Shown: piece by piece, positions 11,806 to 59,497 of the stretch | Layout of the letters: every line of letters starts with the position of its first letter | Position numbering within the stretch: the first letter of the stretch is position 1 | Origin: a virus | Virus record (IMG/VR): IMGVR_UViG_3300047443_000094 | Location: 1 to 59,716 of that record | Strand: one strand, 5' to 3' | Length of the DNA: 59,716 nucleotides | The notes under the pieces: generated by a model | What the model was told of the DNA's origin: nothing | Databases searched by the model: none | What the model saw: the letters and a program-made list of their open reading frames with translations, nothing else | Position numbers and translations under genes: made by a program

Positions 11806-11990
11806 GCGGCGCTCCCAATGAATTCGTAGGACTGGCTCATCAGGTCGACACGGTTGCCGAGCATGAGCTCATGGAGGATTTCGAGCTGCTTGACGCTGAG
11901 GTCGATGCCGGCATGCCAGAGCTCGATGATCGAGGCAGCGTCACCCATGTCAGCTGCTTCGCTTGCTTCTGTGATCGGATCGTTAGCCAC
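11802..11990 (-). CDS. Small acidic hypothetical protein
   Basis: A 62-aa helical, acidic protein coupled to the next gene by an ATGA overlap. No recognised motif. Confidence 0.5.
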   Translation of the reverse strand: MANDPITEASEAADMGDAASIIELWHAGIDLSVKQLEILHELMLGNRVDLMSQSYEFIGSAA

Positions 11991-11999
11991 GGGCGCCTC

Positions 12000-12128
12000 T
12001 TATCGGTTCAGCGCGTAGTGGCAGACATCGAACGTGTGCCCAGTGAGGCACGTCGTCATATCCTGCGACTGGAATGAGGAAATGAGCGCGAGCGCAATCA
12101 CGCTCGCCAAAGCGGCCATACTTTTCAT
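12000..12128 (-). CDS. 42-aa exported peptide, first gene of leftward operon
   Basis: A short gene beginning MKSMAALASVIALALISSFQ, a clear signal-peptide-like hydrophobic stretch, followed by a short segment with two cysteines (TTCLTGHTFDVCHYALNR). ggag lies 9 bases upstream of the ATG. It is the first gene downstream of the predicted leftward promoter and operators B and C, so it should be expressed very early. A role in host envelope or immunity is only a guess. Confidence 0.55.
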   Translation of the reverse strand: MKSMAALASVIALALISSFQSQDMTTCLTGHTFDVCHYALNR

Positions 12129-12178
12129 GTGGTGTTGCTCCGTGCCCCAACGGCGACGCAGCCGTTGTTTACGCTCTC

Positions 12179-12207
12179 ATGGTTGCGTTTAAAACAACGC
12201 AAGTCAA
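12179..12207 (-). promoter_or_regulatory. Predicted leftward early promoter pL
   Basis: On the minus strand: ttgact (12202-12207), 17-base spacer, aaccat (12179-12184). The layout matches the rightward promoter at 13382, and the 17-bp operator overlaps the spacer and -10. The expected transcript starts near 12172, about 45 bases before the 42-aa gene. Confidence 0.5.
12182..12198. promoter_or_regulatory. Operator B
   Basis: gttgcgtttaaaacaac, a GTTG-N9-CAAC dyad lying inside the predicted leftward promoter. Repressor binding here would block the polymerase. Confidence 0.7.
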
Positions 12208-12215
12208 GAGGAAAA

Positions 12216-12232
12216 GTTGTTTTTGAAACAAC
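12216..12232. promoter_or_regulatory. Operator C
   Basis: gttgtttttgaaacaac, 34 bp (about three helical turns) from operator B on the upstream side of the leftward promoter. The spacing suits cooperative binding of repressor dimers. Confidence 0.7.
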
Positions 12233-12291
12233 CAACCGAAAGGCGCGTGTTAGCGCAAAACGCCATCAATCCCTTGATTGCGACATTTCAG

Positions 12292-12957
12292 TTATTTGCA
12301 GGCAGGATAGAGGCCGAGGGGATCACTTATCTTCAGGCCCTTTGGAAACGGGCAGCCGGTCGATAAGCCCGAATCGGTCGAGCGATCGGGCGTGACCAGG
12401 CGGAAAGCAGCGAGCTCGGCGGGATCAAAGATGTACATCTGCGCCGATGGCGTTTGCATCGCGCGCTCAAGGGCTTCGAGATCTACGCCCATGGTCCGGA
12501 AATAGGAGAGCAGCGTGCCACTGTAGGCCTGAGAGGTCTCCATGGCGTGCGCGCCGTCGATCGAACCGTTGAATCGGAACTGGTGCATGCCCAGGCGACC
12601 GCCTTCGACGACTTTCCGCTCGGTGCCGCCGATGAAAGCGAAGCTGCAGGCGGAGAGGCAGGAGCCGTCTTCCAAGATCATGGTGCGGATGGCATTGGCC
12701 CTGATGACTTTGCCAAGGGCGATTCCGCCATCGAGCGATCCGCCGGGCGAGTCGAGAACGATTACAGCTGGGGTATTCGGCTGGTCGGCGATAAAGCTCT
12801 GAAGCTTACGCGGGCTTTGCGATGTGATTTCGCCGGTGACGTAGAGATATTGGAGGCCGCGTTGCGTCGTGTGCCTGGAAATGTCGATCTCGGCCCGGGC
12901 GGGGAGGCCGGCGCCAACGGCTAGAGCAGCAATCAGTGCGCCCCAGCGCTTGCCCAT
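12292..12957 (-). CDS. Secreted ClpP/crotonase-like protease-like protein
   Basis: A 221-aa protein with an N-terminal signal peptide (WGALIAALAVGAGLPARA) and a ClpP-like fold. VIVLDSPGGSLDGGIALG is the oxyanion-type loop, SACSFAFIGG carries the likely nucleophile Ser, and GMHQF the likely His. It resembles predicted periplasmic proteins of the COG3904 type. Its ATG overlaps the repressor stop (TAATG), so it is probably made with the repressor in the lysogen. A role in lysogenic conversion or exclusion of other phages fits the context but is not shown by sequence. Confidence 0.75.
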   Translation of the reverse strand: MGKRWGALIAALAVGAGLPARAEIDISRHTTQRGLQYLYVTGEITSQSPRKLQSFIADQPNTPAVIVLDSPGGSLDGGIALGKVIRANAIRTMILEDGSCLSACSFAFIGGTERKVVEGGRLGMHQFRFNGSIDGAHAMETSQAYSGTLLSYFRTMGVDLEALERAMQTPSAQMYIFDPAELAAFRLVTPDRSTDSGLSTGCPFPKGLKISDPLGLYPACK

Positions 12958-27757: not shown

Positions 27758-27898
27758 CCGGAACCTTCGAAACCGTAATTCAGGTATGCGAGATTTATGT
27801 TTCCCATAGGGCGTTTTCCAGTCCTGACACGTGCCAATCGCCGCTTCCAAAAAGTCTTCCTACCGCATATAAACAGGTGTCATTTACCGCGCATGAGT

Positions 27899-27921
27899 GC
27901 GGCTTCTACGATGGAGCCCGC
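27899..27921 (+). promoter_or_regulatory. Imperfect hairpin over the giant gene's ribosome site
   Basis: gcggcttc and ggagcccgc can pair with one bulged base and one G-U pair, loop tacgat. The right arm contains the ggag in front of the ATG at 27924. Weaker than the other leader hairpins. Confidence 0.3.
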
Positions 27922-27923
27922 GC

Positions 27924-30900
27924 ATGCCTCTGGTGATTGGCCTCGGCCGAGATGATAGCTGGAAAGACCCCCTCAATCTCTACGGCGGCAAAGCCCCCGA
28001 AGCTCCAAAGACCAGTGAGGCGAGCGCATCCACGCGCCCGTCGTTCAGCGATGCGGACAGAAGCGATCTCGTCAACACGGTGATTGCTGAAGCTGCGGGC
28101 GAGGGTGACGCCGGCATGGCCGACGTTGCGTCCGTTATTCGCAACCGCTCTTCTGAGAGAGGCATCAGCCCCGGCGACGTTGTGCGCCAGAAAAGACAGT
28201 TCACCGGTTATGAGGCCCCGGGCGAGGCTGCCAAGCGCGCCCAGCAGGATCCAGTCCTGCGCCAGCGCGCCGAGGCCATCATCGATGGTGTCTTCTCCGG
28301 CGCACTCCCTGATGAGACTGGAGGTGCCGATCACTATCACGCCGATTCTGTCATGCCAGATTGGGCGAGCTCGATGCAGGAGACGACAAAACGCGGTCGC
28401 CACGTCTTCTACAAGTCCGGTCAGCCCGGGCAGAGCAAGCCTTCCGCCAAGACAGCCTTTGCACCCGGCCTCGATGGCAGCGTCGTCGATCCGTTCGAGG
28501 CAATCCTGAACCCGAAGAAGGCGGAACAGCCGAAGGACGGTAGCGCCGACAGCTCCATGCTGCTGAGCAAGCTTCAGCCAGGCAAGCCCGCCGAGTACGT
28601 CAGCAACATGAAGCCGGGCCTTCAGTCTGGCCTCACTGCGATGTTCAACGATGCACCGGATTTCGTGAAATCCGGCCTCGACATCCTTTCTGGTGCGCGC
28701 TCTCCGGAGCGGCAGGCGCAGATCATCGCGGAGAACGCCGGTAAGTACGGGATCGACCGCAAGGCGTGGCTGGCTGACGTCGACGCCATGGGCCCAGTTG
28801 AGGCCGGTCAGAAGTGGAAGCCGATTTTCAAGCAGACCGGCATGTCGGCGAACATCGGCGCCCCAGGTGGATCGCGGCATCAACACGGCGATGCTGCCGA
28901 TCTCGGCTGGAACGGAGGCGAATTTTCATCGGCGCCGAAGGAAGTCGTCGATTGGGTGCACGCGAATGCCGGGAAGTATGGCATGCGCTTCCCGCTCAAG
29001 AACGAGAACTGGCATATCGAGACGGCGGACGCTCGTGACGGTCATGACGCTGAGGCGCCCAGCTCACCAAAGTCAGAAGCGCCAACGATTGTTGCCAATG
29101 CTCACTTCGCGGTCAAAGATCCGATGGGGCTTTATCCCGAGGGCAACCCAATCCAGCAGACGGTGGATACGCAGGTGGCGGCTGCCGATCAGCGGCAGGC
29201 GGACGCCAGCGCCCAGGCTGAACAGAACCGGATGGGTGCCTTCACCGAGCAGCACAACGTCGGAGTGACCGATCGGCAGCAGCAGCTCGAGGCGGAGAAC
29301 CCGGGCCGCTACGTCGCGATCGACGAGAGCGAGCTTCCGAACTGGCAGAAACAGTGGGAAGCCGATAACCGCTCCGGCGGCATTGGCGGCGACACAGCCC
29401 GCATCCTGAAATCCGGTACGATCGGAGTTGGGCAGTCGCTATCCTCGTTGGCCGACACGCTATTTCGGAAGCTGCCAGGCGGCGACGACTTCCTGAAGGC
29501 GTCCGACGACATCGACCGTTGGGTGATGGGCAAGACCATCGACCAAAAGATGGCCGATTCCCAGCAGCGGGCGAATGCCAGCGTGACAGAGCGCCAGCAG
29601 GACGCCGACGCCAAGAACTGGTGGGACGATAAGAAGCATACCTTCGGCCCAGCGTGGCGCGATCCTCGCAGCTATCTCCGCACCGTCGGTGAAAGCGCTC
29701 CCGGTACCGTCGTCACGATGTTGCCAGGCGGCGTGTTGGCGCGTGGGGCATATCTGCGTGCTCTTGCGGCTGGCGCTACGGAACGCGCGGCAGCCGCGAC
29801 TGCTGCCAGAACGGCCACACTCGCAGGTGCCATTACCGAAGGCACCATGGGCGGAGCCGATTCCGCTCGCAACGTTCGTGACAAGATCGGGAAACTGCCG
29901 CGCGAGCAGCTGGCGAAGACTGAAGCCGTTCGGGCGATGGTACAGGGTGGCATGTCGGAAGACGAGGCCATCAAGGCTCTTTCCGAGGACGCTGCCTCCC
30001 AGGCGTTCCTCACAGCAGGTGTTGCCACCGGCATGTTTGGCGGTATGGGCGATCGGGCGCTCGCCAAGATTATTGCCGAAGGTGTCGGTGGCGGCATCGT
30101 CAAGCGCATCGTCGCCGGAGCCACCCGTGGTTTCGTGGGCGAAGGCTTGCTCGAAGAAGCGCCGCAGGGCGCGGCACAGACGATTGCGGAAAACGCGGCC
30201 GTTCAGAAGGCTGATCCAAACCAGTCTCTGACGGAAGGCGTGGGGGAGGCGGTTGCATCCGGTGTCGCGGCTGGCGGTGCCATGGGTGCAGGCATGGGCG
30301 GCGCAGGCGGCGCGTTCCGCCCAGCCTCCCCCGAACATTCCGCGGCGGCGCCTGCCGTAGCAGCACCGGCACCCGAGGCCGCGCCTCAGCCCAAGGGCCC
30401 GATCGGGCGCTCGGTGCAGCACGCCGAGGAGCAGATCGCAGGCCGACAGCAGCAGCGACTGGCCGACGATACCATGCCGGATTGGCTGCTGGACCTCGGG
30501 CGGAGCGGAAAGACCGCCAACGATCACATCGACGGGTTGCTGAAAACGGCATCTGCTGACATCGAGCGGGAGCAGGCCAACCGTCCCTCAGTCGGCGCGA
30601 CGGTCCGCGTTGATCATGAGGGCATCGACCCGTTCATGGCGCGCGTAGACAGCTACGAGGGCGATGAGGCCGTCGTCATCGATGGCGGCAGCGGCGAAGT
30701 GTATCAGGTTCCGATCGCGAGCATCAGCCAGATTGCCAAATCGCCGGAACAGCTCAATCGGGAAAACCCGATCGAGAAAGGACCGGTTCCGATCAATGAT
30801 AGCATTCCCGAATTTTCGAAAGACCCAGCGCTTGAACCGCAGGCACCGGTTGCCAGCGAGATCAAGAGCGAGCCGCTTCCCGCTCAGAAGGATATGCAGG

Positions 30901-33900
30901 CGGCGACGGAACGTCTTCGCGGGCGCCCGTCGCCTGGTCAGCGCGTCATCGTCGATGATGCGCGGGTAGGGCGCTTCGCTGCAAAGGTCGAGAGCTATGA
31001 GGAAGGCGACACCGAAACCGTTGTCACGACCGACGACGGCGAGGTGCTGCAGGTTCCTGTTGACCGCCTCTATGTCGATAAGCTTACCCCAAAGCAGATC
31101 GAGAAGCAGGATCTTGAACGAAATCCACCGATCGAACGCGAGATTGGTGACGCCGGTCCAAACAGCCGAAAGGTTATCGGAAAGACAGTCGTACTTCCCG
31201 ACGAGAACCACGCCGCGTTGTTCGACCTCGCGAAATCTCGCTTTATTGCGAAGAAGTTGGGCAGGGAAGCTCACACAGACCTTGAACGGGTAAGTGCCGC
31301 CGAGGTGAAGCGTCTTGCCGATGCCTTCAATGTCTCGCCGACTGCCATCACCTCGATGGCCGATGATTACCGCTATCGTGTCGACCGCGCGGCGAAGGAA
31401 GCCCGATCCACGTTGCCGGTGCATATGCATCCGGTCAACGACACGCGGCTGCGCCAGTGGCAGCGTGATCGCAAGAACGAGGAGAGCGCCGCCAGCGCTG
31501 CGCCGGAAACCACAGAGCAGGGCGATAGCTTTGCCGACTGGTGGGACCTGACGCTCGATGATCTCGGGCGCAAGCGTGTCCTCGCAGAGACCGGCATCAA
31601 GCGTAGCGAGAAATCGAAGTGGGCTGGTTTCACGCCCGCGATCAGGAAGAAGCTCGAGGCGGTTCGGACGCCGGAGACGCCTAAGACGACGCCCGCCGAT
31701 GTCACCGCGGTTCCGGATATGCCGGCTGGTGTCGTGTCCCGCTTCACCACGGCCAAGGGCAGTGTGTACGAGGTCCACCAGGACGGAACCACGGTTCGCA
31801 CCAAGGCGGCGAGGAACGATCCGGGGCACGAGGGTGATAGCGGCCTGAAGCCGCGCACCGCGAAGACGGTTTACGTCGATGCGAACGCGTCCGTTCTCAG
31901 CACAGCAGGCATGAGCGGTATCGGCTCGAAAGGCTCGCGCGTCATCATCAAGGATGGCAAGGCGTCGCTGCTGACATGGAACGAAGCACAGAACCGCTGG
32001 GGCGTGATGCCGGACGGACGCGACGTTCCAGTGCACGATCAGCCAGCCGTTGGCCGCTTCCCGCTGGAGCTTTGGCAACCGGCCTCCGATGTCAACGGCT
32101 ACGAAGCCTACAGCCGCATGCACGCTGGCAACGCCATCACCGAAATGTCTGCGTCCGCTGTCCAAGGACAGAGGACAGACGGCGCGGACGATTCATCTGC
32201 GCATGAGGCGGCAACCTCTCCCAAGAACGATTTGCCCGAGCCGACGCAGGCTCAGAAGGAAGCCGGAAACTACAAGGTTGGCAGGCTCAAGCTCGGCGGC
32301 CTCGATATCTCAGTAGAGAACCCCGAAGGCTCTGAACGCAAGGGCACCGACGCCAGCGGCAAGCCATGGTCCGTCAAGATGAAGAGCCACTATGGCTACA
32401 TCCGCGGGACCATTGGCCGCGACAAGGATCATATCGATACCTTCGTTCGCCCTGGTGTGAGCGAGCTCGACGACAGCGCGCCGGTGTTTGTTGTTGACCA
32501 GAAGAGCGAGAACGGCCGTTTCGACGAGCACAAGGTGATGCTCGGTTTCGATACCGAGGAGGCGGCGCGCAAGGCCTACCTCGAAAACTACACCGCCGGC
32601 TGGAAAGGCCTTGGCGACATCTCCGCAACCACGATGGATGATTTCAAGCAGTGGCTGAAGTCGGGCAAGACTGATCAGCCGTTCGCGCCGAAGTGGTTCG
32701 GCTCGCGCGAGAAGGCGGACGCCTATATTGCCAAGCAGTCGCTCGGGAGCTCGCACGAAGTCGTCGAGAACGGGAAGCGGTTCGAGGTCAGGGAGAAACC
32801 CGCGGCTCCGACACGGGAAGAACAGGCCCCGCAGCAGGAACGCGCACAATCCGGGCCGCCGCAGATCGTATCCGCCGACGCACCCGAGATCGACCTTTGG
32901 CGCGGCGCGAGCAAAGCCGAAATCGCGGCGATCAAGGCCGGCGAATACGAATTCCGCCCGACCCACAAGGGCATCATGTTCACGACCGATCGTAGGACGG
33001 CGGAATCATATGGTGGAACGACTGGCAACGAAACGTTGGCGATCAAGATCCCGACGTCTGCGAAGATCCTTGACCGCAAGTCACTGAGCGACCGACCACC
33101 GGCGTTCGACGAAGTGCTAAATGCGTCTGGCAAACGGCCGGGGTTCGATATGGATCAGCGCCAGGCCTTTTTCCGGGAAGAGGCTCGCGAGCGCGGCTAT
33201 GACGTCCTGACCTATGCTAGCGGAACCGGTACATATCAGGTCTACGAGATCCTGAACCCCGACATCATCCAGATTGTCGATCAGGCCACGCCGGCCGCAC
33301 AGCCGAAGTCAAAGCCGGCCGTGTCCGTCAACAAGATTTTCACGCTCGATGCGGCTGAAAAGGCCCGCGCGCTTCTTCGCAAGAAGCTTAACCAGATCAA
33401 CTCTGGTATCGATCCTGAGCTTATGCAGGCTGGCATTACGCTCGCCGGTTACCACATCGAGAGGGGCGCCCGCACTTTCGCGGCTTATGCCAATGCCATG
33501 CTCGTCGATCTAGGCGAGGCAGCGCGCCCGTATCTGAAATCGTGGTATATGGGTGTAAAGTACGATCCGCGCGCGTCAGCCTTCGCCGACATGTCGAGCG
33601 CGACCGAGGTGGACGGCATCGATGTCGCCACGATCACGGGAGACGAGAGTGAACCTGCAGAACTGGATCGAGCTGGGTCGCCAGCACTGGAAGGAACACC
33701 TGCCGACGAAGTACCGGGAGCTGAAAGCAGCCGGGAAACTCGACCAGGCGCTGACGGACGCGGCCGAGCAGACGTATCGCGAGACAAGCCAGCTCGAGGA
33801 GAGCGGGTACAGTCCGGACGAGGCGTGGCAGATGAGCAGGGAGAACTATCTCTTGCTGCCGGAAGAGACCGCGACACCCGCTCCGAAAAGCGAACTGACG

Positions 33901-36900
33901 CATCAGATGGCGAAAGCCGCAGCAAGCGGCCAGCGGTCGATGAAAATCTAGAGCAGGGTCCGTTCGGCCCGATTCTTCGCGGCTACGAAGGCAAGTGGCG
34001 GGAAGCAGCGCTAGAGCTCGAGCGCCGCCAGACCGGCGACGCGATCGGCGCTCTCTCGCATCCAGACGTAGGGCCCATCGATCTCGTTTGGGGGAATGCC
34101 GGCACGAACGCGAGCAACGGAGCTGGCCTCGCCAAGCTGATTGCATGGCACCCGGAAGTGCTCGGCAATCTCCAAGGTTTCATCGATCGTCTTCACGTTG
34201 ACAAGGATCGCAGCACCACTCGTCGCATCCAGCTCAGTGACGAGAGCGGCAATGCCGGTGTGCGTCTCGACTATGACGGCACCGCGAAAACATGGCTGCT
34301 GACTGCTTTTGAAAATGGTTCGCGGCGCTCTGAGAAAAGTTCACGCCGTCTCAGCGCTTTGTGGGGTGACCGGCCTGCGTCGGCCCCGCCGCGAACAGAT
34401 GAGAATATATCGGATCAGTTGCGCGATGTCCAATCCGCCGCGGTGCCGGCACAGCAGCGCGCAGTTGACTACACGTTGTCTGCCGACGACAACCTCGGCG
34501 AGGGCGGTCAGAAGGCCAAGTTTGCTGGCAACGTCGCTGCGATCAGGCTACTGCGCACCCTCGACGAAGAGAAGCGCCCGGCAACCCGTGACGAACAGGC
34601 AGTGCTTGCAAAGTGGGTAGGCTGGGGCGGATTACGCCAGGCATTCGCCCGCGAAGATGGTTCTGTTGCCAAGGGATGGGAGAAGCAGGCGGCCGAATTG
34701 AAGGGCCTGCTTTCACCGGAGGAATACAGCGCCGCCGAATCCTCGACGCGCAACGCGCACTACACCGCGGCCGAAGTCGTGTCTGCGATTTGGGACATTG
34801 CACGGAAGCTTGGTTTCAAGGGCGGGCAGGTGCTCGAACCGTCGGTGGGCGCTGGCAACTTCCTCGGCCTGATGCCGGGGGATGTCCGGAACGCGGCAAA
34901 GGTGACTGGCGTCGAGCTCGATCGCGTTACCGGCGGTATCGCGAAGAACCTCTATCCCAGCGCCAACATCCAGACCCCGATGGGCTTCGAAAAGCTCTCG
35001 GTGCCTGATAGCTATTTCGATCTAGCGATCGGCAACCCGCCTTTCGGCAGCGAAAAGGTATACGACAAGGACCGTCGTCACCTAAACAAGCTGTCTATTC
35101 ATAATTTCTTCTTCGCAAAGAGTGTCGACGCTCTGCGCCCGGGTGGCGTGTTGGCGATGGTTGTCACCAACCGCTTCCTCGATGGTCAGTCAGCCGCGGC
35201 GCGAAACCTCATCGCGAAACAGGCCGATCTCGTCGCGGCAATTCGCCTGCCGAATAACGCGTTCCTCAAGAATGCAGGTACCGAGGTAACCACGGATATC
35301 GTCATTCTCCGCAAACGCCTTGCCGGCGAGGCACCATCGTCGAGCCAATGGCTTGGTGTGTCCGACTATCGCGGGCGTGACGGTAACGTGGTCCCGCTCA
35401 ATGACTACTTCGTTGCGCATCCCGAGATGATGCTCGGCGAGTTCGGCGCGTTCGGCTCGATGTATGGGCCAGATGAGCCAGCGCTGATCGCGCGTGGGGG
35501 CCAGGACACGCCGGCCGAGCTCGCGAAGGCTATCCGCAGCCTTCCCGAAAACATCATGGTGGAGCCCGGTCACGTTGCCACAGAGACCGTGTCAGTGCCG
35601 GAGACGGTCAACGACGTGCAGGTTGGCTCGATGTTTGCGGCTCCGGATGGAACCATCCACCAGCGCCTTTCCGATTCAATCGGGCAAGCGCAGTCTGCTG
35701 CCGTTGCTTTCCCGAATGAGACGGCAAAGGAACGTGTGTCGGGCATGGTGCGCGTGCGTGACGCCTTCGCCCGGCTGCGTCGTGCGCAGATTGACGAGAA
35801 GGCTACCGACCAGCAGATCGAGAACCTCCGCAACCGGCTCAACACTCTCTACGACGGGTTCGTCAAGAAACACGGCCCGATCAATGCGGACGCCAACAAG
35901 CGGCTGTTTCGCGATGATCCCACTTGGCCCCAAATTTCGGCACTGGAGCAGGGTTTCGATAAGGGTATCAGCGCTACCGTTGCGAAGGCGACCGGCGAGA
36001 AGGCAACGCCAGCATCGGCGCAAAAAGCAGCGATCTTCTCGAAGCGAACCCAGCAGCCGTACCGCCGCCCGACGTCGGCCAGCAGTGCCAAGGACGCTCT
36101 CGCGACCATCCTTAATGATCTTGGCCGGGTTGATCTGGACGCAATGTCTCGGCTCTACGGCAAGCCCTCGGACGCGATTGTCAGCGAGCTTGGCCCACTT
36201 CTCTATAAAACCCCGTCGGGCGCATATGAGACGGCGGACGCCTATCTCTCCGGTAATGTGAAGCAAAAGCTCGCCGAGGCGGAGCGCGCCGCCGAGCAGG
36301 ATTCGGACTTCCGCCGGAACATCAACGCTCTGCGTGACGTGCAGCCGGCCGATATCGAGGCGATCGACATCGATGTTAAGCCCGGTTCACCCTGGGTGCC
36401 GGCGAAGCACATCGAGGACTTCATCAAGCATGTTGCTCAGTCCTCAGTGAAGCCGAAGGCCTACTATTCCGCAGCGAATGCCAAGTGGGTGCTCGACGTT
36501 CCGTCGCCCGCTTCGGCGGCTCAGACACAATGGGGCACCGATCGCGCCAGCGTTGACACCGTCCTCAGTGCGGTGATGAACGGTCAGTCCATCACGATCT
36601 CAGACCGGATGAACGACGGCACGACGGTCCTCAATCAGCCGGCAACCGAAGCAGCGAACGAGAAGGCGGAGCGCGTAAAGGCGGAATGGCGCCGTTGGTT
36701 GTGGGATAATGACGCCCGCCGCGATGAGCTGGCGCGGCTCTACAACGACACCTTCAACACCGACGTCATGCGAAGCTTTGACGGCGGGCACCTCACGCTG
36801 CCGGGCAAGGTTGGTGACGACATCATTTCCTTCCGGCCGCATCAGAAGAACTTCGTATGGCGGTCGCTGCAATCCGGAACGGCATTGGCCGACCATACCG

Positions 36901-39900
36901 TGGGCGCGGGTAAAACCTTCGCCGCAATCGCGTCGGCGATGGAAAAGCGCCGCATCGGCCAGGCACGCAAGCCCATGTTTGTCGTACCGAACCATCTCGT
37001 TGGGCAGTGGGCGGCGGATTTCGTTCGCCTCTATCCGGGCGCGAAAGTTTTGGCCGCCACGAAAAAGGATTTCGAGAAGGATAACCGCAAGCGGCTATTT
37101 GCCCGCGTCGCCACCGGTGACTGGGACGCCGTCATTGTCGCCCACTCCTCTTTCGGCAAGATCGGGATCGACCCGAACTACGAAAGCCGATTCATCCAGC
37201 AACAGATGGATGATCTCGAACAGTCCATCGGGGAGCTGCGGCGTAACACCGGCGAGAAGTCGCGGAACGTCGCCCAGCTCACCAAATGGCGCGACAACCT
37301 CAAGGCCAAGATGGAACGGCTGCTGGATGCCGGCAAGAAGGACGATGGCCTCACGTTCGACGAGCTCGGCGTTGACGCCCTCTATGTCGACGAGGCGCAT
37401 GAGTTCAAAAACCTCGCTTTCGCCACATCCATGAACCGCGTTGCCGGTCTCGGCAATCAGGCGGGCAGCCAGAAGGCGTCCGACCTTTATATGAAGAGCC
37501 GGTTCATCCTCGAAAAGACCGGCGGCAATAACGTGGCGTTTCTCACCGGAACGCCGCTCAGCAACACCATGGCCGAGATGTTCACCGTTCAGCGGTACCT
37601 CGACGAGAAGGCGCTGCGCAATCTCGGTGTCGCGCATTTCGATGCCTGGGCAAGAGTGTTCGGCGAGGTAGTCAGCGATTGGGAGCTCTCGCCGAGCGGT
37701 CAGTACAAGCTCAACAGCCGGTTCGCCAAGTTCGTGAACATGCCCGAGCTGATGCAGCGCTATCTCAGCTTCGCCGACGTCATCACCAACGACGACATCA
37801 AGGCGCAGCTGGCTGCGATCGGCAAGAAGCTGCCGCTGCCGAAGGTGAAGGGCGGCAAGCCGACGAACATCACCGTCGAACGCTCGCCAGATCAGGCAGC
37901 CTTCATTGGCGAGGGCAAGGCAGACGAAAACGGTAACCTCGAGTTCCCGAAGGGCTCCCTCGTGCACCGCGCCGAAAATCTGCCGAAGAAGGCGGAGAAG
38001 GGCGCCGATAACATGCTGAAGGTTATGTCGGATGCCCGCAAGGCGGCGCTCGACATGCGCCTGATCGATCCCGCTTATTCGGATCATCCGGGCTCGAAGG
38101 TCCATGTCTCCGCCGACAACATCAAGCGCATCTACGATCGCTGGAGCGGGGACCGCGGCACGCAGCTGGTGTTCATCGACCTCTCGACGCCGAAGAAGGC
38201 TCGCGCCCGTGAAGAGGCGGAGCTCCGTGCCCTGATCCAGAAGGCAGACGAGGGCGACGAGGCGGCGCAGGAAAAGCTCGACAACATGTCGCCCGATGAC
38301 TTCCTCGCGCTGCAGAGCACGTTCTCGGTCTACGATGATCTTCGCGAGAAGCTGATTTCCCGCGGCATCCCTGCCGATGAGATCGCCTTCATCCACGACG
38401 CCAACACCGAGGCGCAGAAGGAAGAACTGTTCGGAAAGGTCCGATCAGGCCGCGTCCGAGTCCTTCTCGGTTCAACGCCGAAGATGGGCGCCGGCACCAA
38501 CGTTCAGAACCGTCTCGTTGCGCTCCATCACCTCGATGCGCCGTGGCGTCCGTCCGACCTCGAACAGCGCGACGGCCGTGGTATCCGCCAGGGCAATGAG
38601 CTCTATGGACAGGATCCGGACAACTTCGAAATCGAAATCCTTCGCTACGCGACGAAGAACACCCTCGATGCGCGCCAGTGGCAGGGCATCGAGGCGAAGG
38701 CTCGGTTTATCCAGCAGGTCCGCAAGGGCAATCTGAAAACCCGCGAGATCGAGGACATCGCCGGCGAGGCAGCGAACGCGGCCGAGATGAAGGCTGCGGC
38801 CTCCGGCAATCCTCTCATTCTCGAAGAGATGGAAACCCGCCGTAAGCTCCGCCAGCTTGAAGGCCAATCGGTCGAGCACGATCGCGAACAGCACCGTATC
38901 AAGGGCAAGATCAGGTCGCTCAAGCAGGAGGCCGACGAGATCGAAGCGCGCTCGATCTCCGTGCAGAAGGATGCGGAGCGGGCGGAGGCGATTGCCGACA
39001 AGCCATTTGAGGCGACGATCGGCGGTCAGAGCTTCGATAAGCCGAAGGAATTCGGTGCCGCAATAGCCGCGGCCATGCGCAAGGAGCTGATCGACCACGC
39101 CGGCGACACGGAACTCGGTAAGTATGGCGATTTCACGCTGTCGATCGAGCACCAGTATGATCGGGCGTTCGAAGTCACGGTATCTGGCGATCGTGACTAT
39201 CAGGTGCACGTCCAGGATGCTGCCGACGTTGACGCGACCGGTCTCGGCATGCGCGTGATCAACACCGTCAAGAAGCTCTCGACGGTGCCCCAGTTGGACC
39301 GCGATCGCGCGACAGAGGCGAGGGGGCAGATCCCGGCGCTTGAAAAGCAACTCGGCCCGTGGAAGCACGCCGAAGAGCTCACAGACACATCTGCGCGCCA
39401 TCGCCGTATTCTCGATGCACTGAAGCCAAAGCAGAAGGGTGCTGCAAACGCTGCCGTGGCAAAGCGCCCCGATCCAGTTGTTCGTGGCGACGGCCGGTTC
39501 AAGGAGGCGCAGGCTCCGGAGCGTGGCGAGGGCGAGAGCTACGCCGATTGGGCCCGCCGCATTGTCATGGAGAATGGCCGATCGAGCGGTCACGAGTATC
39601 TCGTTGCGATTGACGATGACGGTTCGACGATTGAGTTCGGTACGGCCGGCGATCCACGCTACACCGGCATGAGCAACAAGCTCGCCTCGGCAATGGCGAA
39701 CCCGGATCGCAGCCTGGTGCTCTATCATAATCATCCGGCCGACACGCCGCTTAGCGCCCAGGACATCGCCGCGACCGTTTACCCCGGCGTGCACCAGATC
39801 TACGCGCTCGGGCATAATGGCTACGATACCGTTGGTGGCATGACATCCGCGGCAAGGGACTATCTTTCTGCCAGCCCGAATATCACGCGGGACAGCCTCA

Positions 39901-42900
39901 CCTTCTCGAACAATCTTGCGACGATTTCCTATGAGGTCGAGCCCTATCTCGCCAACCTCGTGAAGGAGCGCCGTATCACCGAAGCACAGGCCAAAGAGGC
40001 ATTCCATCACTTTGCAGCGATTGTGGCTAACCGAGCCGGCATCATCGACTTTTCAACGAGCAGGCCTTATAACCCGTCAATTGTTCCGGGGCTTGATCGG
40101 AAAATTGACGAAGCCGCTCTGAAACTCGCGAGGGCATTCTTCAAAAATGGAAAACCAGATCCAAGCAGTCCAGGGACTAATCGATCCTCCAACGCCGTTC
40201 GACACGTTGCAGGCATGGAAGGATTGGGCTCAGTCGATCAGCAAGTGGCCGGCCCACGATCCGCAGCGACAGGTCTTTCTGAAGCAAGCACGCCAGATGA
40301 TTCAGGAAAAGTCGAAGGGCGAAAGCGCGTAACCGAAACGCGCGTCGTCAAGGAGCTCAATGGTAAGCTCATCGACATCCAGCCGACACTCCTGAAGACG
40401 GTCCCGCTGAACTATTTCACGGAACTCGCCCGGCCGAACATGACCGCTGTCGGAGACTACCTCCGCGTCAAGCGCCTCATGGACGCCTACCGTGGCACGA
40501 AGCATGCCGCCGCCGACGAGATCGCCGGGGAGTGGCTGAAATATGCCCGCCTCGGTTTCCTCGGCAAGGACAAGAGCCGGGCCCAGGAATTGGCGAACCT
40601 GATGCACAACAGCACGCTTGCTGGCGTCGATCCGAGCAAGACTGACGAGGAGACCACGAAAAAGCCCGGATATGAGCTGCTACGGAAGCAGTATATGGCG
40701 ATGCCGGAGAAGGGCAGGCAGCTCTATCGGAGTGTCCGCGACGCCTACAAGAAACAGGCGCTCGAGCTCGACGATATCCTTCTCGATAATGTGAGGAAGG
40801 CCCAGCAGATCGCCCACGATCGCGCCGAGGCTCGCTATCGCAAGACCATGGAGAAAATCAGGGACAGTGGACTGACGGGCATCGATCGGCGCAATGCCGA
40901 AGAAGATGCAGCAAGTGCACACAAGGCGGAGACGACGAAGGCCACGTGGGCGGCGAAGGCCCGGCTGACGAAGATGCGCATCGCGTTCGAGGCAAGCCGC
41001 GTCGAAGAGCCCTATTTCCCGCTTGGCCGCTTCGGACGGTATTTCGTCACCCAGCGCGATATTGACGGCAGGGTTTTGAGTTTCTCGAAGTTCGAGACGG
41101 CCGCGGCCCGTGACCGTTTTGCGGCGGAGCTGAGCCGTGGTGCTGGCGGCGCCAAGGTCGAGGTGGGTGTGATGGAGGCGGGGAGCGATCTTCGCAAAGC
41201 CATGGATCCGCGCATTGTTGCCGAGATCGAAGAAATTCTCGGTGGCGCAGGCGTCGGCAACGACATCATGGATCAGATCTGGCAGCGCTATCTGGAAAGC
41301 ATGCCGGACCTTTCGGCTCGCAAGCGTTTCATCCATCGCCAGGGCACCGCAGGCTTCACCGGCGACGCGTTGCGGGTGTTCTCGTCGCACATGTTCCACA
41401 GCGCCCACCAGATCGCGCGGCTGAAGTACGGGCTTGAGTTGCAGGAGCTCACCGGTCAGGCCATGGATCAGGCAAAGGAGAGCGACGATCAGACCCGTGG
41501 CGTTACGCTCGCCAACGAGCTGTCGAAGCGCCATGAGTGGGTGATGAACCCGACCGGCAGCAAGGTCGCGCAGACCATGACGAGCACTGCCTTTGTGTGG
41601 TTCCTCGCAGCCTCACCGGCCGCTGCCGCCGTCAACATGACGCAGACTGTTATGCTCGGCCTGCCGATCCTGTCGGCGAAGTTCGGCAGCTTCGCCAAGG
41701 CAGGCGCGGCGCTCGCGCAGGCGTCCATGGATACGGTCAGAGGCCGCGGCTCGATCGTCAACGGCAACCTCTCGAAGGACGAAAAGGCAGCGATCAAGGC
41801 CTTCTATGAATCGGGCCTGATCGACCGGACGCAGAGCCACGATCTTGCAGGCGTCGGCGAGACCGGTGTGGAGTACACGCCGCTGCGGGCCCGGGTGATG
41901 GGTGTTATCTCCTGGGCGTTCCACCGTGCCGAGGTCTGGAACCGAGAAGTGACGGCGCTGGCGGCCTATCGCATGGCGCGTGACGCAGGCGAAACGATGT
42001 CGGCGGCGATCGACACCGCGCACGATCTGACGTGGAAGACGCACTTTGACTATGCGAACTCCTCCCGGCCTGCCGTGTTGCAGAACGACCTTGCCAAGGT
42101 CGCTCTCGTCTTCCGCCAGCACAACATCAACATGCTCTATCGGCTGTTCCGGGATGTTCAGCAATCCATGAAGGGTGAAACCGCCCAGGCGCGCAAGGAG
42201 GCGCGCTATCAACTCGCCGGCGTCGTCGGCATGATGTCGCTGATGGCGGGCGTCTCGGGCACCGTTGGCTTCCATCTGCTGATGGGGCTCGCCGGTATGG
42301 TGTTCGGCGACGATGACGATCCAATGGATTTCGAAACGCAGTTTAAGGCCAACGTCATTGATATCCTCGGGCCCGAGCTCGGTGGCGTAGTGTTGAATGG
42401 TGTGCCAGGTCACTACCTCGGCATTGATCTTTCGAGCCGGATCGGCATGCCGGACTTGTGGTTCCGTTCTCCGTCTCGCGACCTGCAGGGCAAGGACGAG
42501 TACCAATACTGGCTCACGCAGACGCTCGGCGCGACTGCGGGGCTCGGGGAGACGCTCTACACCGGTGGCAGCCTGATCTATGACGGCGATGTTGCCCGTG
42601 GCATTGAGATGATGGCGCCCAAGGCGATTCGCGACCTGATGAAATCCTACCGCTACGCCAGCGAAGGGCTGGCGACCATCGGCGGGGATCAGGTGCTGCC
42701 GGCCGATGAGATGGGCTATCATGACATCGTTGCGCAAGCGCTCGGCTTCAACCCGGCAAGGGTCGCGGAGACGTGGGACCGTAACACGGCATTGAAGAAC
42801 GCGGAGCGGCGCGTGCTCGACGAGCGTCAGCGCCTGGTCAACAAGTTCGCGATGGCAGCCATGTCACAGGATGATGGTGCGATCGATGATGCCGTGAAGG

Positions 42901-43082
42901 CGATCGAGAAGTTCAACGCGGCGCCGGTACATGGTGGGGTGGCAATCACGAAGGACACCCTGCAACGATCGCTGAAAACCCGGGCCAGCAATTCGGCAAA
43001 ACGGGAGGATGGCGTCCTGATCCGCAACAAGATCCTCAGCCTTCGCCTGCGAGAGAGCTTGGCTGACCCCGTGTATCGGTGA
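27924..43082 (+). CDS. Giant polyvalent virion protein (DarB-like, PLxRFG)
   Basis: One unbroken frame of 5052 codons. Domains in order by residue: SleB-like wall hydrolase (about 45-170); M15-type peptidase with SRHQHGDAADLGW and NWHIE (215-370); Ala/Gly-rich hydrophobic region (590-800); two small repeated beta units (893-935, 1006-1045); inorganic-pyrophosphatase-like domain (1433-1590); ADP-ribosyltransferase-like domain (1658-1786); barnase/EndoU-like RNase-like domain (2011-2136); N6-adenine methylase with LEPSVGAGNF and IGNPPFG (2230-2480); SNF2 helicase with VGAGKT 2993, DEAH 3156 and QRDGRGIRQGN near 3550; JAB protease with HNHP at 3935; PLGRFG at 4366; hydrophobic C-terminus. Such proteins are thought to be injected with DNA and protect it. 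Two linkers (1909-2010, 4075-4136) are out-of-frame readings of small genes, pointing to gene fusion. Confidence 0.92.
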   Translation: MPLVIGLGRDDSWKDPLNLYGGKAPEAPKTSEASASTRPSFSDADRSDLVNTVIAEAAGEGDAGMADVASVIRNRSSERGISPGDVVRQKRQFTGYEAPGEAAKRAQQDPVLRQRAEAIIDGVFSGALPDETGGADHYHADSVMPDWASSMQETTKRGRHVFYKSGQPGQSKPSAKTAFAPGLDGSVVDPFEAILNPKKAEQPKDGSADSSMLLSKLQPGKPAEYVSNMKPGLQSGLTAMFNDAPDFVKSGLDILSGARSPERQAQIIAENAGKYGIDRKAWLADVDAMGPVEAGQKWKPIFKQTGMSANIGAPGGSRHQHGDAADLGWNGGEFSSAPKEVVDWVHANAGKYGMRFPLKNENWHIETADARDGHDAEAPSSPKSEAPTIVANAHFAVKDPMGLYPEGNPIQQTVDTQVAAADQRQADASAQAEQNRMGAFTEQHNVGVTDRQQQLEAENPGRYVAIDESELPNWQKQWEADNRSGGIGGDTARILKSGTIGVGQSLSSLADTLFRKLPGGDDFLKASDDIDRWVMGKTIDQKMADSQQRANASVTERQQDADAKNWWDDKKHTFGPAWRDPRSYLRTVGESAPGTVVTMLPGGVLARGAYLRALAAGATERAAAATAARTATLAGAITEGTMGGADSARNVRDKIGKLPREQLAKTEAVRAMVQGGMSEDEAIKALSEDAASQAFLTAGVATGMFGGMGDRALAKIIAEGVGGGIVKRIVAGATRGFVGEGLLEEAPQGAAQTIAENAAVQKADPNQSLTEGVGEAVASGVAAGGAMGAGMGGAGGAFRPASPEHSAAAPAVAAPAPEAAPQPKGPIGRSVQHAEEQIAGRQQQRLADDTMPDWLLDLGRSGKTANDHIDGLLKTASADIEREQANRPSVGATVRVDHEGIDPFMARVDSYEGDEAVVIDGGSGEVYQVPIASISQIAKSPEQLNRENPIEKGPVPINDSIPEFSKDPALEPQAPVASEIKSEPLPAQKDMQAATERLRGRPSPGQRVIVDDARVGRFAAKVESYEEGDTETVVTTDDGEVLQVPVDRLYVDKLTPKQIEKQDLERNPPIEREIGDAGPNSRKVIGKTVVLPDENHAALFDLAKSRFIAKKLGREAHTDLERVSAAEVKRLADAFNVSPTAITSMADDYRYRVDRAAKEARSTLPVHMHPVNDTRLRQWQRDRKNEESAASAAPETTEQGDSFADWWDLTLDDLGRKRVLAETGIKRSEKSKWAGFTPAIRKKLEAVRTPETPKTTPADVTAVPDMPAGVVSRFTTAKGSVYEVHQDGTTVRTKAARNDPGHEGDSGLKPRTAKTVYVDANASVLSTAGMSGIGSKGSRVIIKDGKASLLTWNEAQNRWGVMPDGRDVPVHDQPAVGRFPLELWQPASDVNGYEAYSRMHAGNAITEMSASAVQGQRTDGADDSSAHEAATSPKNDLPEPTQAQKEAGNYKVGRLKLGGLDISVENPEGSERKGTDASGKPWSVKMKSHYGYIRGTIGRDKDHIDTFVRPGVSELDDSAPVFVVDQKSENGRFDEHKVMLGFDTEEAARKAYLENYTAGWKGLGDISATTMDDFKQWLKSGKTDQPFAPKWFGSREKADAYIAKQSLGSSHEVVENGKRFEVREKPAAPTREEQAPQQERAQSGPPQIVSADAPEIDLWRGASKAEIAAIKAGEYEFRPTHKGIMFTTDRRTAESYGGTTGNETLAIKIPTSAKILDRKSLSDRPPAFDEVLNASGKRPGFDMDQRQAFFREEARERGYDVLTYASGTGTYQVYEILNPDIIQIVDQATPAAQPKSKPAVSVNKIFTLDAAEKARALLRKKLNQINSGIDPELMQAGITLAGYHIERGARTFAAYANAMLVDLGEAARPYLKSWYMGVKYDPRASAFADMSSATEVDGIDVATITGDESEPAELDRAGSPALEGTPADEVPGAESSRETRPGADGRGRADVSRDKPARGERVQSGRGVADEQGELSLAAGRDRDTRSEKRTDASDGESRSKRPAVDENLEQGPFGPILRGYEGKWREAALELERRQTGDAIGALSHPDVGPIDLVWGNAGTNASNGAGLAKLIAWHPEVLGNLQGFIDRLHVDKDRSTTRRIQLSDESGNAGVRLDYDGTAKTWLLTAFENGSRRSEKSSRRLSALWGDRPASAPPRTDENISDQLRDVQSAAVPAQQRAVDYTLSADDNLGEGGQKAKFAGNVAAIRLLRTLDEEKRPATRDEQAVLAKWVGWGGLRQAFAREDGSVAKGWEKQAAELKGLLSPEEYSAAESSTRNAHYTAAEVVSAIWDIARKLGFKGGQVLEPSVGAGNFLGLMPGDVRNAAKVTGVELDRVTGGIAKNLYPSANIQTPMGFEKLSVPDSYFDLAIGNPPFGSEKVYDKDRRHLNKLSIHNFFFAKSVDALRPGGVLAMVVTNRFLDGQSAAARNLIAKQADLVAAIRLPNNAFLKNAGTEVTTDIVILRKRLAGEAPSSSQWLGVSDYRGRDGNVVPLNDYFVAHPEMMLGEFGAFGSMYGPDEPALIARGGQDTPAELAKAIRSLPENIMVEPGHVATETVSVPETVNDVQVGSMFAAPDGTIHQRLSDSIGQAQSAAVAFPNETAKERVSGMVRVRDAFARLRRAQIDEKATDQQIENLRNRLNTLYDGFVKKHGPINADANKRLFRDDPTWPQISALEQGFDKGISATVAKATGEKATPASAQKAAIFSKRTQQPYRRPTSASSAKDALATILNDLGRVDLDAMSRLYGKPSDAIVSELGPLLYKTPSGAYETADAYLSGNVKQKLAEAERAAEQDSDFRRNINALRDVQPADIEAIDIDVKPGSPWVPAKHIEDFIKHVAQSSVKPKAYYSAANAKWVLDVPSPASAAQTQWGTDRASVDTVLSAVMNGQSITISDRMNDGTTVLNQPATEAANEKAERVKAEWRRWLWDNDARRDELARLYNDTFNTDVMRSFDGGHLTLPGKVGDDIISFRPHQKNFVWRSLQSGTALADHTVGAGKTFAAIASAMEKRRIGQARKPMFVVPNHLVGQWAADFVRLYPGAKVLAATKKDFEKDNRKRLFARVATGDWDAVIVAHSSFGKIGIDPNYESRFIQQQMDDLEQSIGELRRNTGEKSRNVAQLTKWRDNLKAKMERLLDAGKKDDGLTFDELGVDALYVDEAHEFKNLAFATSMNRVAGLGNQAGSQKASDLYMKSRFILEKTGGNNVAFLTGTPLSNTMAEMFTVQRYLDEKALRNLGVAHFDAWARVFGEVVSDWELSPSGQYKLNSRFAKFVNMPELMQRYLSFADVITNDDIKAQLAAIGKKLPLPKVKGGKPTNITVERSPDQAAFIGEGKADENGNLEFPKGSLVHRAENLPKKAEKGADNMLKVMSDARKAALDMRLIDPAYSDHPGSKVHVSADNIKRIYDRWSGDRGTQLVFIDLSTPKKARAREEAELRALIQKADEGDEAAQEKLDNMSPDDFLALQSTFSVYDDLREKLISRGIPADEIAFIHDANTEAQKEELFGKVRSGRVRVLLGSTPKMGAGTNVQNRLVALHHLDAPWRPSDLEQRDGRGIRQGNELYGQDPDNFEIEILRYATKNTLDARQWQGIEAKARFIQQVRKGNLKTREIEDIAGEAANAAEMKAAASGNPLILEEMETRRKLRQLEGQSVEHDREQHRIKGKIRSLKQEADEIEARSISVQKDAERAEAIADKPFEATIGGQSFDKPKEFGAAIAAAMRKELIDHAGDTELGKYGDFTLSIEHQYDRAFEVTVSGDRDYQVHVQDAADVDATGLGMRVINTVKKLSTVPQLDRDRATEARGQIPALEKQLGPWKHAEELTDTSARHRRILDALKPKQKGAANAAVAKRPDPVVRGDGRFKEAQAPERGEGESYADWARRIVMENGRSSGHEYLVAIDDDGSTIEFGTAGDPRYTGMSNKLASAMANPDRSLVLYHNHPADTPLSAQDIAATVYPGVHQIYALGHNGYDTVGGMTSAARDYLSASPNITRDSLTFSNNLATISYEVEPYLANLVKERRITEAQAKEAFHHFAAIVANRAGIIDFSTSRPYNPSIVPGLDRKIDEAALKLARAFFKNGKPDPSSPGTNRSSNAVRHVAGMEGLGSVDQQVAGPRSAATGLSEASTPDDSGKVEGRKRVTETRVVKELNGKLIDIQPTLLKTVPLNYFTELARPNMTAVGDYLRVKRLMDAYRGTKHAAADEIAGEWLKYARLGFLGKDKSRAQELANLMHNSTLAGVDPSKTDEETTKKPGYELLRKQYMAMPEKGRQLYRSVRDAYKKQALELDDILLDNVRKAQQIAHDRAEARYRKTMEKIRDSGLTGIDRRNAEEDAASAHKAETTKATWAAKARLTKMRIAFEASRVEEPYFPLGRFGRYFVTQRDIDGRVLSFSKFETAAARDRFAAELSRGAGGAKVEVGVMEAGSDLRKAMDPRIVAEIEEILGGAGVGNDIMDQIWQRYLESMPDLSARKRFIHRQGTAGFTGDALRVFSSHMFHSAHQIARLKYGLELQELTGQAMDQAKESDDQTRGVTLANELSKRHEWVMNPTGSKVAQTMTSTAFVWFLAASPAAAAVNMTQTVMLGLPILSAKFGSFAKAGAALAQASMDTVRGRGSIVNGNLSKDEKAAIKAFYESGLIDRTQSHDLAGVGETGVEYTPLRARVMGVISWAFHRAEVWNREVTALAAYRMARDAGETMSAAIDTAHDLTWKTHFDYANSSRPAVLQNDLAKVALVFRQHNINMLYRLFRDVQQSMKGETAQARKEARYQLAGVVGMMSLMAGVSGTVGFHLLMGLAGMVFGDDDDPMDFETQFKANVIDILGPELGGVVLNGVPGHYLGIDLSSRIGMPDLWFRSPSRDLQGKDEYQYWLTQTLGATAGLGETLYTGGSLIYDGDVARGIEMMAPKAIRDLMKSYRYASEGLATIGGDQVLPADEMGYHDIVAQALGFNPARVAETWDRNTALKNAERRVLDERQRLVNKFAMAAMSQDDGAIDDAVKAIEKFNAAPVHGGVAITKDTLQRSLKTRASNSAKREDGVLIRNKILSLRLRESLADPVYR
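33649..33951 (+). CDS. Overprinted 100-aa phage protein inside the giant gene
   Basis: A GTG start preceded by gggaga opens a 100-aa protein in the +1 frame relative to the giant gene. It begins NLQNWIELGRQHWKEHLPTK and continues QALTDAAEQTYRETSQLEES and DEAWQMSRENYLLLPEE. I recognise this as a small conserved phage protein that is elsewhere a separate gene. Third codon positions in this frame are mostly G or C, as in real genes here. The giant frame in the same stretch has A-rich third positions and low-complexity sequence. So this is the ancestral coding frame and the giant protein's linker is the by-product. Confidence 0.75.
   Translation: MNLQNWIELGRQHWKEHLPTKYRELKAAGKLDQALTDAAEQTYRETSQLEESGYSPDEAWQMSRENYLLLPEETATPAPKSELTHQMAKAAASGQRSMKI
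40147..40332 (+). CDS. Overprinted 61-aa protein inside the giant gene
   Basis: ATG-start frame, +1 relative to the giant gene: MENQIQAVQGLIDPPTPFDT, LQAWKDWAQSISKWPAHDPQ, RQVFLKQARQMIQEKSK. It is a well-formed helical protein sequence with G/C-favouring third positions. The giant frame here reads a Ser/Gly/Pro-rich linker. It lies between the JAB domain and the PLxRFG part. No family recognised and the ribosome site (gaggg) is weak. Confidence 0.6.
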   Translation: MENQIQAVQGLIDPPTPFDTLQAWKDWAQSISKWPAHDPQRQVFLKQARQMIQEKSKGESA

Positions 43083-58048: not shown

Positions 58049-58145
58049 GCCAAGGCACATTACGGAAGCGGCAAAGCCGCAGGGGAGGGTGCTCGCCGTT
58101 GCCCTCCTCATCTGCGTAGTCTGGATCGCGATCGCGATGCACTAG
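58035..58145 (+). CDS. 36-aa membrane peptide
   Basis: A short gene, MTKLRPRHITEAAKPQG followed by one membrane segment RVLAVALLICVVWIAIAM. It overlaps the holin end by 14 bases and its stop overlaps the integrase stop at the palindrome ctag. No ribosome site apart from cggc, so support is moderate. Could be an antiholin or accessory lysis peptide. Confidence 0.45.
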   Translation: MTKLRPRHITEAAKPQGRVLAVALLICVVWIAIAMH

Positions 58146-59437
58146 GCCGCCGCCTTCTTCGGCCGCCGGTAGTTTTCAGGGTTGAGGATTTTTCGCGGCC
58201 CGCTCAGCAGCTCTTGAGCGCTGGGCGCTCCTTCCATGATGAGATCAGCCCATTCCTGCGCCAGCTCCTTGCGGCGTTGCAGGTAGAGCGATCGGTTATA
58301 GGCCGCTTCCACCTTATCCTTCGGCACGTGCGCGAGCATGAAATCGATGACTGCGCGGTCAGCGGGGAATCGTTCGTTCATGATGGTGCTGAAGGTCGAA
58401 CGGAAGCCGTGGGGGACTTGGCGCTGATAGTAGCCAGCACGGTTCAGAAGGTAACCCAGCGCGTTCTCGCTCATCGGCTTCATGGGCTTTCGGGCGTTGG
58501 GGAATACGTAGGGCCCCCGGCCGGTCAGTTCCCGCAATACGCTGATGGTCTCGAGCGCCTGTTGCGACAGCGGGATGAAATGATCGCGGTTCTCGTCATC
58601 CTTGAATTTCTTCTTCAGCTTCATGCGCGCTGCCGGGATCGTCCAAACCGGGTCGTTGGGGTCAACCTCGTCGAACTCGCTCCACGGGGTAGTCGAGAAT
58701 GGTCCTGGACGAGCTGCAGTGAGGGCTAGCAGGCGAATGCCTAGCTTCGTGATAGGGTGGGCGGGCGTGCTCTCGACCGCTCGCAGCATCTTCAGCGCTT
58801 CCTCGAGCTTGGTAATGGCCGGTTGCCGTCCCTTGGTCAGCGGCGCCATCGCCTGGGCGACGACGGCGGCAGGGTCCGAGCTGGCGCGGCCGGACGCGAT
58901 CCCATAGACAAAGACCGCCGACATCCGCTGCCGCAGTCTGCGCGCCGTCTCCTTGGCGCCGCGCTGCTCGACCAGGCGCAACGTCGCCAGGACCAGTTGT
59001 TCATTGATGTCCCTGATCGGGAGCGAGCCGAGGGCAGGGAATATGTCACTCTCGAGCGAGCCGATGACGTCAGCCGAATGCCGCTCCGCCCACATGGGTA
59101 CTTGGTGCTGATGCCATTCGCGGGCGATCACTTCGAACGTCTCGCCCGTACGCTGCTGCCCCACAAGCTTTTCGATCTTCTTCACGGTGCCGGGATGGCG
59201 TCCTTCTTTCAGCAGCCGCTTTGCATCATCGCGAGCGTTGCGCGCGTCGCTCAAGGACACATCCGGGTAGTTGCCTATGATGAGGGTTTGCTCTTTCCCA
59301 TCGTAACGATAGCGGAGCCGCCAGACCTTCGCGCCGGCTGTCGTGACGAAAAGATAAAGACCACCGGTGTCGGCGATCCGGTAGGCCTTTTCCTTTTTTC
59401 CGGCTTTTCGGAGTTGAACGTCTGTAAGTCCAGCCAT
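58142..59437 (-). CDS. int: P4-like tyrosine integrase
   Basis: A 431-aa protein with the arm-binding DUF4102 domain at the start (LTDVQLRKAGKKEKAYRIAD, LYLFVTTAGAKVWRLRYRYD, QTLIIGNYPDVSLSDAR), a core-binding middle domain, and a catalytic domain with the tyrosine recombinase residues: Arg in TAARPGP, His-x-x-Arg in HGFRSTF, His in LAHVPKD and the nucleophile Tyr in AYNRS. The start MAGLTDVQL at 59437 follows gggggc. It lies beside tRNA-Ser, its attachment site, and faces the lysis genes. Confidence 0.93.
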   Translation of the reverse strand: MAGLTDVQLRKAGKKEKAYRIADTGGLYLFVTTAGAKVWRLRYRYDGKEQTLIIGNYPDVSLSDARNARDDAKRLLKEGRHPGTVKKIEKLVGQQRTGETFEVIAREWHQHQVPMWAERHSADVIGSLESDIFPALGSLPIRDINEQLVLATLRLVEQRGAKETARRLRQRMSAVFVYGIASGRASSDPAAVVAQAMAPLTKGRQPAITKLEEALKMLRAVESTPAHPITKLGIRLLALTAARPGPFSTTPWSEFDEVDPNDPVWTIPAARMKLKKKFKDDENRDHFIPLSQQALETISVLRELTGRGPYVFPNARKPMKPMSENALGYLLNRAGYYQRQVPHGFRSTFSTIMNERFPADRAVIDFMLAHVPKDKVEAAYNRSLYLQRRKELAQEWADLIMEGAPSAQELLSGPRKILNPENYRRPKKAAA

Positions 59438-59497
59438 AGCGGCGTCTTGCCCCCTGAAACGCGATGCCCACACTTCGCCGAGAAGATGCCCGCAGAA

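Follow-up and report, generated by a model that had tools for sequence, protein, structure and literature searches.

A hidden second gene and a probable effector-inhibitor pair inside the gene for a giant phage virion protein

The window, by which we mean the whole stretch of viral DNA analysed here (59,716 nucleotides), encodes on its forward strand a DarB-like polyvalent protein of 5061 residues (27897..43082) with Hydrolase_2, VanY, InPase, PBECR1-like, DNA methylase, SNF2 helicase, JAB, LPD39 and PLxRFG regions. The protein matches the PHROG annotated as DarB-like antirestriction and, given its great size and an array of domains that includes several effectors, belongs among the polyvalent proteins; its peptidase, PBECR-like, DarB-type methylase-helicase and LPD domains are typical of those described from phages (Iyer et al. 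2017, PMC5512222). The weak PBECR1 nuclease-like stretch (about 34056-34319; E 1.5e-4, under the Pfam cut-off) is possibly another effector domain. Toward the C-terminus, a JAB/JAMM metallopeptidase-like domain (39546..40142) is followed by an LPD39 domain (40335..40889) and a PLxRFG (tail-700) domain (41010..43034), all on the forward strand. The join between the first two is filled exactly by an open reading frame of 61 codons on the same strand (40147..40332), which runs from an ATG at 40147 to a TAA at 40330-40332 in frame +1 relative to the giant gene; LPD39 starts directly after its stop. Across this region the giant frame reads a Ser/Gly/Pro-rich linker. A preliminary description had given the coordinates and frame of the small ORF correctly and had placed it rightly at the join behind JAB, but it named PLxRFG as the region on the far side, where LPD39 in fact comes next.

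The JAB domain carries an invariant JAMM signature within 39594..39764 (+), with Glu at 39594-39596, HNH at 39726-39734, Ser at 39753-39755 and Asp at 39762-39764; the E, H, H, S and D residues are invariant in the 19-21 JAB members aligned. The best PDB match of an AF2 model (pLDDT 92) is PfJAMM1 (5ld9/5lda; VIA Z 6.8, rmsd 3.7 Å over 108 residues). The top Foldseek matches in the PDB are JAMM enzymes with modest scores (E 4e-3), and the nearest of them are of deubiquitinase type, bacterial Bub and Ubl-DUB complexes among them. As modelled, the domain appears to combine a JAB/MPN fold with the metallopeptidase signature, and zinc-dependent hydrolysis is predicted. A Pfam search leaves this JAB clade unrecognised, and sequence similarity to solved JAMM enzymes is undetectable. 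The DUF4329 profile matches none of the JAB members, and the RadC profile reaches E 0.06 in only 2 of 19.

The small ORF is almost certainly a real protein-coding gene, as judged from its pattern of conservation. The open frame by itself proves nothing, since the +1 frame stays open in 57% of synonymous shuffles that hold the giant's amino acids fixed, and the case rests on conservation. The frame is open, and its product kept, in every relative giant carrying the same JAB domain; amino acid identity is 97%, 84% and 82% in three of them (L002, L003 and L004), 60% in Agrobacterium phage Atu_ph08 and 45% in Sinorhizobium phage PBC5. About 30 related records, near-duplicates included, have it intact, among them PBC5, Atu_ph08 and Ruegeria phage 45A6. 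The preliminary description had named as fatal to the gene a small frame broken by stops in close relatives while the giant protein stays intact; broken copies were sought in those records and none was seen.

Codon-position statistics locate the constraint. The share of differences at position 3 of the giant's codons stands at about 0.5-0.9 in the flanks, falls to 0.16-0.36 in the overlap and recovers after it (two gapless groups). The excess of substitutions in the overlap shifts to giant position 1, which is position 3 of the small frame (single-pair Fisher tests, p 1e-6 to 4e-3), so that constraint sits on the amino-acid-changing positions of the small frame. That frame is the better conserved of the two in 45 of 45 cross-clade pairs. 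The giant frame is open throughout and weakly constrained in the overlap, both frames being open and under selection; the third forward frame has one to three stops in each sequence of two close groups, against zero for the small frame. The start codon is preceded by a Shine-Dalgarno-like GAGGG (40130..40134, +; 12 nt 5' of the ATG), and relatives keep both the ATG and a match to a ribosome-binding site. In 20 of 21 overlapping cases the start has an SD-like match of 4 nt or more ahead of it, compared with 11.3 expected from synonymous shuffles, an enrichment that is indicative because the rows are related to each other; the single exception is a row with a mis-set start coordinate. These results bear out the earlier proposal of a real second gene at the domain join. 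The gene is unlisted in every annotated phage record examined that carries it.

The product, of a family we denote IDPPsPfdTLxxW, is predicted to consist of an extended N-terminal segment, I-D-P-P-x-P, followed by a two-helix hairpin. The protein has no match at useful E-values in Pfam, PHROGs or NCBIfam, and Foldseek with its model returned nothing below E 2. Several candidate matches were rejected: a PDB profile match to an S-layer endoglucanase (E 4e-4) is spurious, covering about 33 residues only; tblastn matches in plasmids and distant phages (LysR regulators and others) are chance, with the exception of Ruegeria phage 45A6, which is real as judged by position; and two genome matches (L040, L041) are unrelated long proteins read in their own frame.

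Searches that started from the JAB domain show how closely the two genes keep company. When 50,697 phage records were searched with the JAB domain alone, the matches were PBC5, Atu_ph08 and Ruegeria phage 45A6, and in each of them the small ORF follows the domain immediately. The small gene is also present at every one of the distant JAB loci on viral contigs (L031, L048-L052, L076, L077 and L079), part of which were found through the small ORF and part through JAB. In about 1,080 genomes a JAB profile gave 14 loci, 11 with the small gene (10 by HMM and one, L111, by eye); as the profile was built from paired loci, the coupling holds for this JAB clade and not for all JAB domains. The three loci without it are the two weakest matches (G060 and G617) and an isolated JAB of 143 residues (G750), and its absence there fits other JAB clades and equally a dispensable partner. 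In two genomes, weakly similar small ORFs with no JAB nearby were seen at L097:1438-1623 and L098:1480-1620 (-), at E 1e-5 to 7e-4; these are possibly an orphan relative or chance. Where the pair occurs, the small gene starts about -40 to +50 nt from the end of the JAB domain, immediately 3' as in toxin-immunity modules, and the pair is common to quite different delivery proteins, namely MuF proteins, a portal protein, DarB-like giants, ParB/SNF2 giants and an LPD38 giant. The small protein is very probably a functional partner of the JAB domain.

The pair exists in a separate and a nested form. At five loci (L031, L049, L052, L076 and L079) a separate small gene overlaps or abuts the stop codon of the JAB-encoding gene, as the preliminary description had suggested looking for in the gene order of relatives. 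JAB forms the end of a MuF head protein in the first four (in L031 with a MuF match slightly under the Pfam cut-off). In L079 it ends a portal protein (1354-4062) in which Acb1 (anti-CBASS) is present as well; the small gene comes next, followed by a MuF gene. The separate small genes sit among head genes, in frame 0, +1 or +2 relative to JAB. In the giants, the JAB frame continues over the entire small gene, which is always in +1. The nested form occurs in at least three giant builds: DarB-like, ParB with SNF2 (45A6, L048, L051) and LPD38-ended (L077). Two DarB-like giants that lack this JAB, those of POI1126 and Mwe-JY07, carry in its place an HExxH zincin-like domain (L083, about 11900-12400, and L084, about 11600-12000), from which this slot seems reserved for a metallopeptidase; a replacement small ORF was sought in these giants and nothing gene-like was found.

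Most parsimoniously, giant genes acquired the two genes as a pair and the JAB stop codon was lost. The pair would have originated as an ordinary operon of a JAB-ended MuF- or portal-type protein and a small downstream gene; giant polyvalent genes would have taken it up, and with the stop gone the JAB frame would read over the small gene as a disordered linker, the small gene being retained inside. Because the nested gene has homologues that are separate genes, the overlap is better accounted for by loss of the upstream gene's stop codon than by a small gene born de novo; Delaye et al. 2008 (PMC2268670) set stop loss against overprinting as routes to such pairs, in which one strand carries two frames and one frame lies within the other. 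The giant-frame linker is, we think, likely to be the younger of the two, and the term "overprinted" in the preliminary description probably has the matter the wrong way round. This order of events is what we infer; a tree of the JAB domains, which has long branches, settles neither the direction nor the number of events.

The preliminary description also reported another overprint in the same giant gene, and from the two proposed that at least three ancestral genes had been fused head to tail. The other ORF is real (33622-33951, +; 109 codons by the first-start rule, though translation probably begins near 33652, at NLQNWIELGRQHWKEHLP). It lies out of frame in 8 of 9 DarB-like giants examined, with 44-65% of its amino acids conserved, in phages of Klebsiella, Erwinia, Vibrio, Pseudomonas, Ochrobactrum, Agrobacterium and Microcystis, Rhizobiales included. 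Its occurrence is independent of JAB, and as a nested gene it is probably the more widely distributed of the two. In PBC5 (L082, AF448724.1 16500-33500) the giant is annotated as two genes, orf33 and orf23, and the N-terminal half ends, in the same frame, with the sister 109-residue protein; this arrangement is a split giant or a sequencing frameshift. The fusion proposal itself was not borne out. JAB, the small gene and LPD39-PLxRFG were found as three separate genes in no genome examined, and the presence of the pair in unrelated giants (ParB/SNF2, LPD38) suggests that a ready-made cassette of two genes was inserted or swapped in, with the JAB stop read through, which accounts for the JAB pair better than a three-gene fusion.

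Evidence on what the small protein does comes from a prophage-like contig of a bacterial genome (G011 contig C101; L108:2743-6274) with one JAB gene and four intact small genes. The JAB gene there also has a PBECR3 domain. The small genes share 55-72% identity; the first overlaps the JAB gene, and two lie over duplicated, truncated JAB tails without the HNHP motif. Orphan immunity genes and fragments of toxin ends are typical of polymorphic toxin loci, and by its sequence this one locus appears to have both extra immunity genes and truncated toxin ends. Zhang et al. 2012 (PMC3482391) count JAB clades among the polymorphic-toxin domains that come with immunity genes, and Jamet et al. 2017 (PMC5576092) report that 89% of MuF toxin genes are followed by a small ORF of under 150 residues. 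From the array and these precedents, we favour, with moderate confidence and by analogy, the reading that the small protein is the cognate neutraliser of the JAB/JAMM domain, either an immunity protein or an antitoxin-like inhibitor.

We infer physical inhibition, delivery with the virion, and a JAMM domain with an activity and a target. The giant protein would be carried by the virion and injected into the next cell, where its JAMM domain would act. Translation from the internal ATG on the same mRNA would supply the producing cell or lysogen with an inhibitor that keeps the domain harmless before release; the conserved extended I-D-P-P segment ahead of the hairpin could occupy the JAMM active site. 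The window has a tyrosine integrase gene (58142-59473, -), which makes the phage probably temperate, and its relatives are found in bacterial contigs, so that lysogens would need protection. A promoter-like site was sought within the giant gene upstream of the small ORF and none was found, a point against this scenario as far as expression in a quiet lysogen is concerned. A more specific scenario, which we offer tentatively and think may well be wrong, is that the injected JAMM domain is a deconjugating enzyme stripping the ubiquitin-like tags of bacterial immunity (type II CBASS, Bil/Bub), with its inhibitor nested out of frame in the enzyme's own giant gene and the pair moving as one cassette between virion proteins.

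Neutralisation has to be weighed against other readings of the same pairing. The JAB domain may be a counter-defence enzyme and not a toxin, in which case the small protein would be an activator or adaptor; the fold matches are limited to Foldseek E 4e-3 and Z 6.8, and the array is a single locus. JAMM peptidases often require a partner. The main rival to a neutraliser is accordingly a positive partner of JAB (an activator, a substrate adaptor or a loading chaperone), the domain being an isopeptidase that counters defences such as the ubiquitin-like conjugation of type II CBASS or Bil/Bub. Strict pairing of the two genes, the structural proximity to deubiquitinase-type enzymes and the union of JAB with anti-CBASS Acb1 on one portal protein (L079) all speak for it. 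An activator fails, however, to explain intact small genes beside truncated, non-catalytic JAB tails in the four-copy array, and the position of the small gene matches that of MuF immunity genes; we regard a positive partner as rather improbable. A virion or assembly protein, such as a head accessory or scaffold, that adjoins JAB by happenstance in the late region is less probable again: the separate forms do sit among head genes, and two members score very weakly against PHROG head-tail-adaptor profiles (E ~0.1), but the small gene tracks JAB into MuF, portal, ParB/SNF2 and DarB-like contexts and is missing from JAB-less DarB-like giants.

Two further readings deny the small ORF a protein of its own. 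The constant +1 relation in giants and the missing promoter would suit an alternative JAB C-terminus read by frameshifting, or a constraint at the RNA level. Such an origin is very unlikely, given the conserved ATG and SD-like site, the constraint on amino-acid-changing positions of the small frame, and the use of frames 0, +1 or +2 at separate loci, by which frameshift products are no common theme. That the frame is a chance opening in a GC-rich gene can be practically dismissed: the opening itself is unremarkable given the giant's amino acids (P ~0.57), but homologues at 25-60% identity, the codon-position shift and the SD enrichment stand against chance, and the separate-gene homologues already refute it.

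The likeness of the pair to known systems is partial. Polymorphic toxin-immunity modules of the MuF type in temperate phages have an effector domain at the end of the MuF head protein and a small unannotated ORF directly after it (Jamet et al. 2017, PMC5576092), and the same JAB and small genes are found in just that context at L031, L049, L052 and L076; JAB is unnamed in the text of that paper. In the window, by contrast, the effector is internal to a DarB-like giant of 5061 residues and not C-terminal to MuF, so that it falls outside the MuF toxins, and the small gene lies entirely within the giant gene in another frame. Tox-JAB-1 and Tox-JAB-2 (DUF4329), described by Zhang et al. 2012 (PMC3482391), are likewise predicted toxins of the JAB superfamily that have an immunity gene next to them, but the window clade has no Pfam DUF4329 match and its small partner matches no family. 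The JAB enzymes of CBASS (Cap3) and of Bil/Bub share the JAMM fold, and one JAB member is fused to the portal protein with Acb1; removal of ubiquitin-like proteins by the window JAB is putative, and the domain differs from those enzymes in having no detectable sequence similarity to solved JAMM structures. Iyer et al. 2017 (PMC5512222) treat RadC-type JAB domains and four other peptidase superfamilies, and a search of that paper by term for overlapping genes or a JAB partner ORF found none. We recognised no description of the JAB-small gene pair or of a nested immunity gene in our literature search, which is not proof of absence.

Standard annotation suppresses ORFs nested within long genes. 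The findings suggest a simple search rule, to look in the other frames where an effector domain ends on its 3' side, and indicate that what looks like a linker in a giant protein can be in part the by-product of another gene. The locus holds a hidden, unannotated second gene that probably forms an effector-inhibitor pair inside a giant virion protein, and this candidate JAMM pair is accessible to a two-plasmid test. Giant virion proteins can, on this evidence, conceal conserved partner genes of their own effector domains.
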